Shown one piece after another: positions 9,221-14,259 of a stretch of 36,721 nucleotides of DNA (position 1 is its first letter; the number at the start of each line of letters is the position of its first letter). Source of the DNA: a virus; the IMG/VR virus record IMGVR_UViG_3300044695_000904, positions 1 to 36,721 of that record. The stretch is one strand, 5' to 3'. The translations under genes were made by a program, and so were the position numbers. The notes under the pieces were generated by a model, which saw only the letters and a list, made by a program, of their open reading frames with translations, was not told the DNA's origin and searched no databases.

Positions 9221-9774
9221 ATGTATCCAGCTATCAAACAAACAACTGATTTTATTGCTCAGGAAGTATTAAAATACGGACACCCCGGAAAGACGGGGGC
9301 CAAGACGCATGGGAAGGCGAAGGGTGATAGTGGCATATTGCACACAGCCGATAGGGAATGCAGCCTTTCCAGCCGTGTTGGTGAATGCGTAGGCTGATAC
9401 GTCAAGGACTGATCCTCAGCGTAGGGCAGATAGAGAACCCTTCCAAGCCGGAGATCAGCACCGGCCACCAACAACCTATTTCGCCTCACCCCAGCTGGGG
9501 CCGACCTCTACATCCACCCGGTTGGGTATCTCCATCTTGACGCAGTTGGCCATGATATCCGCGGCGCGTTTCCAGATTTGACGGCTGAGATGCGAAAGAA
9601 GTGCCGCGATCTCCGGTCTACGAAGCGTTCAAAGCATGGCGAGATGGAAAAAGTACAGAAGCCGTTATCATTAAATTATGCAAAGAGCATAACGTATTAG
9701 ATTGGGCCACAACCGTAAGGCGTTCGCTTTCACGCTTAATTCATGACAATTATTTGAATTCACGCTTAGGTTGA
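9221..9774 (+). pseudogene. Small early gene interrupted by foreign DNA
   Basis: The 5' part starts at ATG 9221 after the leader GGAGATTAAAT and reads MYPAIKQTTDFIAQEVLKYG. After about 9280 the composition turns GC-rich and the frame stops. A native-looking 3' part resumes at about 9616 in another frame (VYEAFKAWRDGKSTEA ... to a stop at 9772-9774). Together these look like one ~75-residue protein split by ~340 bases. The inserted bases hold a DNA polymerase gene tail on the other strand. The product is of unknown function and presumably inactive unless the insert is spliced out or is an assembly error. Confidence 0.5.
9476..9616 (-). pseudogene. polA (fragment): 3' remnant of a family A DNA polymerase gene
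   Basis: The minus strand encodes 46 residues ending in a stop at 9476-9478. They include ADIMANCVKMEIPNRVDVEV and the terminal GPSWGEAK. The closing pattern, a helix followed by a V-P/N-x-V-x-V-x-V-G-x-W-x-x-A-K end, is the typical C-terminus of DNA polymerase I-type enzymes. No other part of a polymerase is present in this genome. The base composition is more GC-rich than the flanks. It is too short to be functional. Confidence 0.6.
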
Positions 9775-9807: not shown

Positions 9808-9829
9808 TCATTCGATTGGAGATTAGACA

Positions 9830-10338
9830 ATGCAAACAATTCTTTTCGCTATCCCTGAATCAAGATTGACGGCAAAGCTTGCAGAATCAATTACCGGATC
9901 ACTAGGCAAGCCCATACAAAGCGCGCAAACGGATTAGACTCGATTTCATGGGTAGATTCTATGATCAAGCTTATTCGGAAATCAGGCGAAACATATTTCC
10001 GTTGGCATGATAGCGGCGATTTACAGAGCTTTATGCATTTGCTTAATATTGTCAAAATTGCAGAATCTTTGCCTTCTGTTAGTTTCTGGCTTCCGACAAA
10101 AGAAAAAAAGCTTGTCTATCAATATCGGGAAACTTTCGGCGATTTCCCGGCTAATTTATGCGTACGGTTATCTGGTGCAATGATTGACGGCAAAGCGCCT
10201 GATTATGCTGGCAATACGTCAACAGTGACATCAACGTTCAATTTCACTTGTAAAGCGCCAAAACAAGGCAACAAATGCCTTGATTGCCGGGATTGTTGGG
10301 ATCGGAATATTAAAAACGTAACGTATAAGGTTCATTAA
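9830..10338 (+). pseudogene. Gp88-like protein gene, broken by internal deletion
   Basis: The N-terminal frame (9830-9937, 35 residues, leader GGAGATTAGACA) begins MQTILFAIPESRLTAK and stops soon after GSLGKP. The C-terminal part continues in a different frame from about 9905, as QAHTKRANGLDS into SMIKLIRKSGETYFRWHDSGDLQS, FWLPTKEK and CRDCWD (stop at 10336). This second part matches the Gp88 family of small phage proteins, where RWHDSGDLQS and the Cys-rich end are characteristic. The usual middle region with a Cys pair is missing. The join falls on GGCAAGCC, which would fit deletion through a short repeat. The 125-residue frame from ATG 9961 could still be translated. Confidence 0.6.
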
Positions 10339-12860: not shown

Positions 12861-13097
12861 ATGCAGAAATTGATGACAAAAGCGGAATTTAATGAATGGT
12901 GGGTTTCTGACAAACTATCAGGGAACAATCCCTTTCTTCGAGAAAGCCCTACATATTGGGCATGGGAAGGCTACCAGGCTGGCGTGAAAGCAGAGCGCGA
13001 GGCGTGTGCGAAGACAGTAGAACAGGCCGGTATAGAGGGCTACGGCACGATCTTTGAAGCAGCGGCTTTACTTATCCGCGAGAGAGGTGCGCCATGA
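12861..13097 (+). CDS. Small early protein with WEGYQAG segment
   Basis: This 78-residue protein starts at ATG 12861 after the leader GGAGATTAGAT. The frame can be extended upstream to 12813 but without a ribosome site. The centre reads YWAWEGYQAGVKAEREACA and the C-terminus FEAAALLIRERGAP. Short phage proteins of this type, often with A-x-W-x-G-x-x-A-G and ERE-CA motifs, are frequent in recombination operons but have no assigned function. Its stop overlaps the next start as ATGA. Confidence 0.65.
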   Translation: MQKLMTKAEFNEWWVSDKLSGNNPFLRESPTYWAWEGYQAGVKAEREACAKTVEQAGIEGYGTIFEAAALLIRERGAP

Positions 13098-13354
13098 AAC
13101 CAACACAAGAGCAAGCACTTCGAGAATATTTACATGAAGCAATTATTCCTCTAATTGAAGATGTGCTTGTCAAAAAAATTGGACAAGGCATGACTTTTGC
13201 AACAGAAGAACTCAAACGATCTAAGAAAGAATGGCAAGGGCTGACGGATGAGGAGTATGAGGCGATGGCAGAAAAATATGTCACTAATTATTTCTTTGAC
13301 ACACTTAAATATGCCAGAGCCATCGAAGCCAAACTGAAGGAGAAGAATACATGA
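13094..13354 (+). CDS. Charged helical protein upstream of the exonuclease
   Basis: This 86-residue protein is rich in Lys and Glu, mostly helical, with a segment KKIGQGMTFATEELKRSKKE near residues 27-46. The C-terminal helix is long (YARAIEAKLKEKNT). No metal site or membrane segment was seen. It overlaps both neighbours as ATGA, so it is likely co-translated with the YqaJ-like exonuclease and may help that module. The function is unknown. Confidence 0.65.
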   Translation: MKPTQEQALREYLHEAIIPLIEDVLVKKIGQGMTFATEELKRSKKEWQGLTDEEYEAMAEKYVTNYFFDTLKYARAIEAKLKEKNT

Positions 13355-14259
13355 CAAGTCCTAATCAAGAAGACTTTGAGCCAGAAGTACGCAATAGCGC
13401 ATGGTGGTCAGGTGATAGCCGTATGGCAGTCAATGGCAAAGCGGCTGACGTTATCCTGCAAAAGCAGGGAAGGATGCCGCCGCCAGACTTGTCCGATATT
13501 CAGGAAGTGCTGGATATGGGTAAGGCGATGGAGCCAACTATTGCCAGGCTGTTTCAGGATAAGCACCGCATTGAACTGAAAGACGCAGACTATGCACTTA
13601 CACATCCGACTGAGAAATGGATGCGCTCTCACTTTGATTACATCAGTGCAGATGGACGAATACTCGTTGAATGCAAGAACTACAACAGTGTCGTTATGTC
13701 TAAGTTCGACGAAGAAACAAACATGGTACCTATTGCTGATCTCACTCAGTGCATCCATGAAGCTGCCGTTCATAACGTGGATGAAGTTTATCTTGCAGTC
13801 CTGTTTGGTGGACAAAGATTCCGCACCTTCCACTTCAACATCACGCCACAGATGAAGGAAGAACTCATCAAGCAGATGGCGCAGTACTGGGGCTACGTTC
13901 AATCAGGAAACTTGCCTGATCCTACGACCATTGACGCTTGCAAGGTTAGCTTCCCGACAAATACTGAGGAAGTGGCAATAGCTACGCAAGCTGTTGAAAC
14001 AGGTATTGCTGCGCTCAAAGAGTACAAGGCAAAGATTAAGCAACTGAAAGATGAAGCAGAAAAGATCGAGGTAGCAATCAGAGGTTACATGGGTACACGG
14101 GGATCAATCGTTAGCGTTGACGGACACATGCTAGTCACTTGGAGGAATTCAAAACCAAGTATGTCATTTAATGCCGATTTATTTCAAAAGGCAATGCCAG
14201 ACATTTATGAAAAGTTTGTCACGGAAACGCCAGGTTCTCGCCGCTTTTTACTTAAATGA
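13351..14259 (+). CDS. YqaJ/lambda-type exonuclease
   Basis: This is a 302-residue nuclease of the PD-(D/E)XK superfamily, YqaJ-type, which degrades one strand of double-stranded DNA to supply single strands to an annealing protein. The conserved parts are AWWSGDSRM at ~17-25, MGKAMEPTIARLF at ~56-68 (Glu61), HFDYIS with Asp96, and VECKN with Glu107 and Lys109, which give the catalytic D...ExK. TQCIHEA near 132 takes the place of the usual Q-x-Q helix. Residues 220-250 form a coiled coil. It lies directly before a RecT-type gene, the usual phage two-component recombination pair. Confidence 0.85.
   Translation: MTSPNQEDFEPEVRNSAWWSGDSRMAVNGKAADVILQKQGRMPPPDLSDIQEVLDMGKAMEPTIARLFQDKHRIELKDADYALTHPTEKWMRSHFDYISADGRILVECKNYNSVVMSKFDEETNMVPIADLTQCIHEAAVHNVDEVYLAVLFGGQRFRTFHFNITPQMKEELIKQMAQYWGYVQSGNLPDPTTIDACKVSFPTNTEEVAIATQAVETGIAALKEYKAKIKQLKDEAEKIEVAIRGYMGTRGSIVSVDGHMLVTWRNSKPSMSFNADLFQKAMPDIYEKFVTETPGSRRFLLK

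Follow-up and report, generated by a model that had tools for sequence, protein, structure and literature searches.

Structured RNAs and foreign DNA pieces have both been described in phages. In phage HK022, the put RNAs bring about antitermination in cis without protein factors. These RNAs lie in the leaders of early operons and consist of two stem-loops (PMC9378689). STnc100 (RF02076), a gammaproteobacterial prophage sRNA, is expressed as a small RNA in EHEC according to RNA-seq and Northern results (PMC5331693), and the PasD sRNA has recently been linked to it as a relative (PMC13192938). GOLLD, ROOL and OLE are large structured RNAs of phages, bacteria and environmental DNA. The mosaicism of phage genomes arises by illegitimate recombination, with short microhomology at the junctions, foreign pieces that carry gene stubs and recombinases encoded by the genome. 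Here we analysed a stretch of 36,721 nt from a 36.7-kb virus record (the window), in which a small early gene is interrupted. We consider it probable that the insert is a non-coding RNA locus that was captured from another, polA-carrying phage together with the ends of the neighbouring genes, and that it acts as RNA.

The ATG at 9221 opens a small ORF, the first of the rightward genes beyond a divergent non-coding region. This ORF stops after about 9395 and its 3' part continues in a different frame. An earlier note on this DNA let the gene resume at about 9616 in another frame; the interruption and the frame change hold, and the boundaries have moved to 9267 and 9625. When 9266 is joined to 9626, the sequence reads MYPAIKQTTDFIAQEAFKAWRDGKSTEAVIIKLCKEHNV... 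and aligns with the uninterrupted gene of a more distant contig, L159 (MYPAIKQTTDKIAQQAFLVWQQGGDHNAVIIKLCKESNV...), with no gap and no extra residue at the junction. The insert is thus 9267-9625, 359 bp in length, with GAAG on each side. The features of the locus are as follows.

9221-9266, plus strand: small early gene, 5' part (MYPAIKQTTDFIAQE...), first gene of the rightward early cluster, with an intact homologue in L159
9263-9266, unstranded: left copy of the GAAG direct repeat, the putative insertion microhomology, from the sequence
9264-9272, plus strand: AAG TAT TAA, the last codons (K-Y-stop) of the donor small gene if the insert is read as a circle; the donors L079, L081 and L082 end ...KKCRDLRATKY*
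9283-9298, plus strand: hairpin CCCCG-GAAAGA-CGGGG; L188 and L193 have the same loop on another stem (GCCGG-GAAAGA-CCGGC)
9300-9382, plus strand: predicted RNA module A (CCAAGACGCATG...CCGTGTTGG hairpin) with interior subtype GGGTGATAGTGGCATATTGCACACAGCC, from a covariance model (R2), covariation and sequence copies
9375-9475, plus strand: predicted RNA module B, with closing stem GTTGGTG/CACCAAC, a hairpin with loop GGCUGAU, a variable region and a hairpin with loop AUCAGC (a kissing-loop candidate), from a covariance model (R1), covariation and fold
9476-9570, minus strand: the last 31 codons and the stop codon (3' end) of a phage family-A DNA polymerase gene, a likely passenger, from nucleotide and protein matches
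9571-9625, plus strand: 3' end of a donor small membrane-protein gene facing polA (PDLTAEMRKKCRDLRSTK), a likely passenger, whose 55 bp are 80% identical to L079/L081 at the nucleotide level (E about 1e-9)
9622-9625, unstranded: right copy of the GAAG direct repeat
9626-9774, plus strand: small early gene, 3' part (AFKAWRDGKSTEAVIIKLCKEHNVLDWATTVRRSLSRLIHDNYLNSRLG-stop); the join 9266-9626 gives a 64-aa ORF

The near relatives L002 and L003, whose flanks on either side match the window at about 95% identity, do not have the insert. Between the positions corresponding to 9091 and 9779 they hold a different small gene, and the locus is therefore variable. The insert is richer in GC than its flanks, as had been noted before (0.563 for 9267-9625, compared to 0.27 in the 300 bp on the left, 0.417 on the right and 0.44 in the window). 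That a foreign insert splits, and thereby destroys, the small first early gene is well supported by these comparisons. The earlier proposal of DNA acquired from another phage agrees with the near relatives lacking the insert, with the intact gene in L159 and with gene pieces that match the polA-adjacent region of other phages. There was no blastn match between the 2 kb around the site and phages, nor between the insert and plasmids, and a search of bacterial genomes for relatives of the interrupted gene gave one match, which was spurious.

The small early genes of this phage group differ by many indels. In the next gene (Gp88-like, PF17338), 142 bp have been lost between two GCAAGC repeats (window 9902-9913, compared to L002 5320-5475), which causes a frameshift and removes a cysteine-rich part. 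A start sequence, GGAGATTAGACAATG, is common to the small early genes (window 9811-9832; L002 4966-4982 and 5229-5250; L159) and may be a regulatory signal as well as a recombination joint.

On the minus strand, 9476-9570 aligned over 91-94 bp with the polA ends of the viral contigs L079-L082, at 91-94% nucleotide identity, and the protein of the stub had 60-67% amino acid identity to the C-termini of annotated phage DNA polymerase I proteins. The earlier note had read the last 46 residues of a family A polymerase here, ending GPSWGEAK; the polA C-terminus and GPSWGEAK-stop are correct, but the match covers only the 31 codons ahead of the stop codon. The residues upstream of them (RRPEIAALLSHLSRQIW) are not polA but the antisense of 55 bp from the 3' end of another donor gene. 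In L079 and L081 this piece sits just past the polA stop, as the 3' end of a small convergent gene that ends NPDMTPEARKKCRDLRATKY*, whereas in the window it is on the opposite side of polA. The two coding ends meet at 9570/9571 with at most 2-3 bases in common. After GAAG, the insert starts with TATTAA, and its right end followed by its left end reads ...PDLTAEMRKKCRDLRSTKY* (...KKCRDLRSTKY*), compared to ...PDMTPEARKKCRDLRATKY* in the donor. By codon counting, the chance of a Tyr codon and then a stop at that point is estimated at ~0.0015 (2/64 x 3/64). Because its two ends rebuild the terminus of the donor small gene, the insert looks circularly permuted. The simplest account would be a circular permutation of a donor segment, reconstructed as the small-gene end, the RNA and the polA end, that was opened at GAAG. 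In L080, module A directly adjoins a polA end 94% identical to that of the window. A search for relatives of the donor small gene returned only the three donor contigs already known, none with all the pieces contiguous.

The phage had been described as having no polymerase of its own, and indeed no other match to family-A polymerase (PF00476) was found in the record, which holds the last 31 codons and no intact domain. The polA stub looks like a passenger with no evident role, because a stub so arranged was seen nowhere else and the RNA modules occur in hundreds of places. Short stretches of 25-45 bp elsewhere in the window (13073-13106, 13226-13255 and 13312-13357) are 86-100% identical to polA-bearing phage contigs such as L080-L087 and L127-L129, which suggests repeated exchange with a polA-bearing phage lineage.

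The earlier note described the insert as carrying a polA-type 3' end. That end is present, but the main content, 9283-9475 between the gene stubs, was overlooked and is predicted to be a structured RNA common to many phages. On the evidence of conserved folds and covariation, this payload would comprise the GAAAGA hairpin, module A and module B. The CCCCG/CGGGG hairpin that had been noticed near the left edge was found at 9283-9287/9294-9298. A search with the payload core identified six viral contigs in unrelated contexts, one of which (L080) has it directly beside polA. In L193 (1150-1430), the GAAAGA hairpin, two copies of module A and a module B stand in a row.

The copies of both modules were first gathered by sequence patterns, so that conservation of the letters fixed in those patterns is no evidence, and the E-values of the covariance models are rough owing to a short calibration. 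The arms of module A, CAAGACGCATG and CCGTGTTGG, were found at the right distance in at least 119 viral stretches, where chance is estimated to give fewer than one. The interiors of the copies differ, and the subtype of the window recurs in L080, L186, L187, L280 and L292. The model R2, built without the window, matches 9300-9382 with 50.3 bits (E 2.8e-10). In the inner stem, which was mostly not fixed by the search pattern, six of the eight pairs have changed on both sides. Paired cells make up 94.4%, compared to 75.0% in shuffles, 48 cells are double changes, compared to 13.3, values that none of the shuffles attains, and the covariation score exceeds those of all 500 shuffles. RNA is favoured for module A because U-G pairs are common. 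Copies overlap ORFs of at least 100 aa in 29 of 95 cases, compared to 74% for random positions, as expected for a non-coding locus. Nine of the 95 copies lie within 500 bp of a tRNA, all on the same strand, compared to 2.3% for random positions, and the association is modest. L222 and L261, which share one fixed site, are 93% and 100% identical in the flanks and only 55% identical in the hairpin interior. Direct comparison of flanks, used in place of a clustering by flank identity that was too loose for counting sites, gave conserved flanks with a divergent interior in 18 of 73 same-site pairs, which represent few independent sites. The loop interior of module A thus appears to be swapped like a cassette at fixed sites.

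Module B was matched by the model R1, also built without the window, only at 9375-9475 (53.7 bits, E 3.7e-14). Its outer stem covaries strongly, with forms such as GUUGGUG/CACCAAC, GUUGUGGUG/CACCACAAC and GCAGGUG/CACCUGC; eight pairs have changed on both sides, G-U pairs are present and the covariation score is again higher than in all 500 shuffles. The loops GCUGAU and AUCAGC are complementary in all six pairs in the window. Across the copies, one varying pair stays paired in all of them (G-C, A-U or G-U), and the remaining five are invariant because the search fixed them and carry no information. The MFE z-score is only -1.96, and the computed fold closes module B. In the window, as in the other A-B tandems, modules A and B both draw on the strand GUGUUGGU for their closing stems, and the two closings are therefore mutually exclusive. 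No exact match to a 22-mer from the variable part of module B was found among the viral contigs, and the RNA locus showed neither a clear promoter nor a clear plus-strand terminator. In a large Salmonella plasmid (L319, 371-1729), two complete copies of module B with very long variable regions stand in tandem. In L266 (4888-5280), a module B lies within another recurrent arm pair (AAGCGGATGCTG ... CAGACGCAGCGAGTACC), which is also present in L184, L185, L186 and L292. The modules thus appear to be stacked and nested.

Besides viral contigs, module B was found in the cultured phages mEp460, Aeromonas ST4, Pseudomonas ZC08, Salmonella IME207 and several Klebsiella phages. The mEp460 type is present in 840 of 5,426 complete E. 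coli genomes (about 15%), and 237 of the 944 sites in E. coli are on plasmids. In mEp460 and the E. coli prophages the module follows the repressor gene and has the early-left genes on its other side; one Klebsiella phage carries it between Q and holin, and other copies are in tRNA clusters or between structural genes. Module B was not found in the relatives of the window that were searched, among which L010 alone had module A, nor in the loci of polA phages that were examined. No annotation existed at module B in the 25 E. coli records listed, and no description of either module was found in Rfam 15 or in the literature searched. A search of Rfam with the whole window (introns, riboswitches, GOLLD etc.) gave no match at the gathering score; weaker matches were only chance, miRNA-like ones in an AT repeat with E above 1. 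Apparently, the modules are a widespread, unannotated phage RNA family whose interiors are exchanged like cassettes.

We suggest that in donor-like phages the small membrane-protein gene and polA are convergent, with the RNA between their 3' ends, so that a contiguous donor would have the order small gene, hairpin, A, B and polA and contain the sequence ...CGGTCTACGAAGTATTAAAATACGGACACCCC.... The intergenic RNA and the two gene ends would have been joined end to end, as a circle or a tandem copy, and the segment would then have been inserted, at the 4-bp homology GAAG, into the gene that opens the rightward early cluster, by illegitimate recombination during co-infection. The phage encodes RecE-like and RecT-like recombination proteins. 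Most likely the RNA is made from the plus strand, as the first part of the early transcript. It would then act as RNA, either as a stable small regulatory RNA comparable to STnc100 working in trans or as a leader element working in cis; it could also be a decaying passenger itself.

The second of these functions, with the same origin of the insert, would be an action like that of HK022 put, in which the folded leader RNA modifies RNA polymerase for the downstream early genes. In the window, the RNA lies within the gene that comes first after the divergent promoter region, module B in mEp460 and the E. coli prophages has an early position, the Klebsiella copy lies between Q and holin, and put RNAs likewise lie in early leaders, where they form two stem-loops (PMC9378689). 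However, the copies in tRNA clusters or between structural genes are often outside leaders, and the similar-looking STnc100 was reported as an expressed small RNA (PMC5331693). We regard a put-like action as unlikely.

An artefact would explain the locus differently, if fragments of a co-occurring polA phage had been joined into the contig when the library was prepared or assembled. This record alone has the insert, the pieces of the insert are in permuted order, and the 142-bp frameshifting deletion at a short repeat is nearby. However, the outer junctions share only 4 bp, which we think too short for an error of a k-mer assembler, the RNA modules are complete at both edges with high model scores, and small early genes in this group vary by many indels anyway. 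A chimera is therefore improbable in our opinion. Even less can be said for a mobile element with its own transposition mechanism, for which GAAG would be a target-site duplication. The 4-bp direct repeat at the edges, the subterminal hairpin on the left side and the dispersal of the modules across many phages would fit such an element. Yet the insert ends within donor coding sequence and not at element ends, and constant ends are missing, since the flanks of other A/B copies differ right up to the module stems. The donor gene also has the right GAAG (ACGAAG), so that GAAG is microhomology and not a duplication, and we consider this explanation very improbable. The earlier idea that an early transcript complementary to the polA 3' end of a competitor lowers its polymerase is scarcely credible: the 95 nt do match polA ends of possible competitors, at 91-94% identity, and lie antisense inside the rightward early transcription unit, but the polA stub was found so arranged nowhere else, the RNA modules next to it are widespread without polA, and the stub of a neighbour gene is carried too, as a passenger would predict.

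If the captured locus does act as RNA, annotation has apparently missed a structured RNA that about 15% of complete E. coli genomes carry, as do many phages that infect Klebsiella, Pseudomonas, Salmonella, Aeromonas and freshwater bacteria. The swapped interiors would point to selection for diversity, such as a conflict with hosts or other phages could bring, and the capture would be a route by which phages gain non-coding RNA genes, with the ends of neighbour genes coming along. As a tentative extension, phages might share exchangeable RNA cassettes. The conserved arms of module A, about 20 nt in length, would have two roles, forming the stem of the RNA and acting as homology arms, by which the RNA between them would be exchanged whole at a constant site; modules would be stacked and nested. 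Competition of A and B for GUGUUGGU would be a switch, and through the variable part the RNA of each phage would have a specificity of its own, directed for instance at host RNAs or defence systems. This is possible, and we would not at present call it likely.

Among the known systems, module B is akin in build to STnc100, itself a little-understood prophage RNA. Compared by eye, the Rfam consensus and the module B alignment A1 follow the same plan: GGUGAAU, a hairpin, a variable region, a second hairpin and CACC closing the outer stem. Both have complementary loops, GUGC/GCAC in STnc100 and GCUGAU/AUCAGC in module B, but the loop and stem sequences differ. Both are present in phages, often near tRNAs. 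In Aeromonas phage ST4 (L307), a match to STnc100 below the threshold (1943-2051, 39.1 bits, cut-off 47) lies 450 bp upstream of the module B copy, near three tRNAs. Even at E 10, the model RF02076 found nothing in the window, and it had no match at the module B copies in L306-L309, and the RNA of the window is for this reason not filed as STnc100. Module B thus appears to be built like STnc100 without being STnc100.

An integron attC site was rejected on inspection, as GTTGGTG does not fit GTTRRRY, and so was an IS200/IS605-like element, as the ends fall within donor coding sequence; GOLLD, ROOL and group I/II introns had no Rfam match. The put RNAs resemble the RNA of the window as phage RNAs made of hairpins, at a position in the genome like that seen in the window and in lambdoid phages. 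However, put is about 70 nt with two stem-loops, whereas A and B together are larger, have a variable interior and occur also in tRNA clusters. GOLLD, ROOL and OLE share with the modules their occurrence in phages and environmental DNA, but they are far larger, and no Rfam match was found in the window or at the module loci. Finally, the insert resembles phage mosaicism in its short microhomology junctions, its foreign gene stubs and the recombinases encoded by the genome. Unlike the usual mosaicism, the piece in the window appears circularly permuted and is centred on a non-coding RNA.
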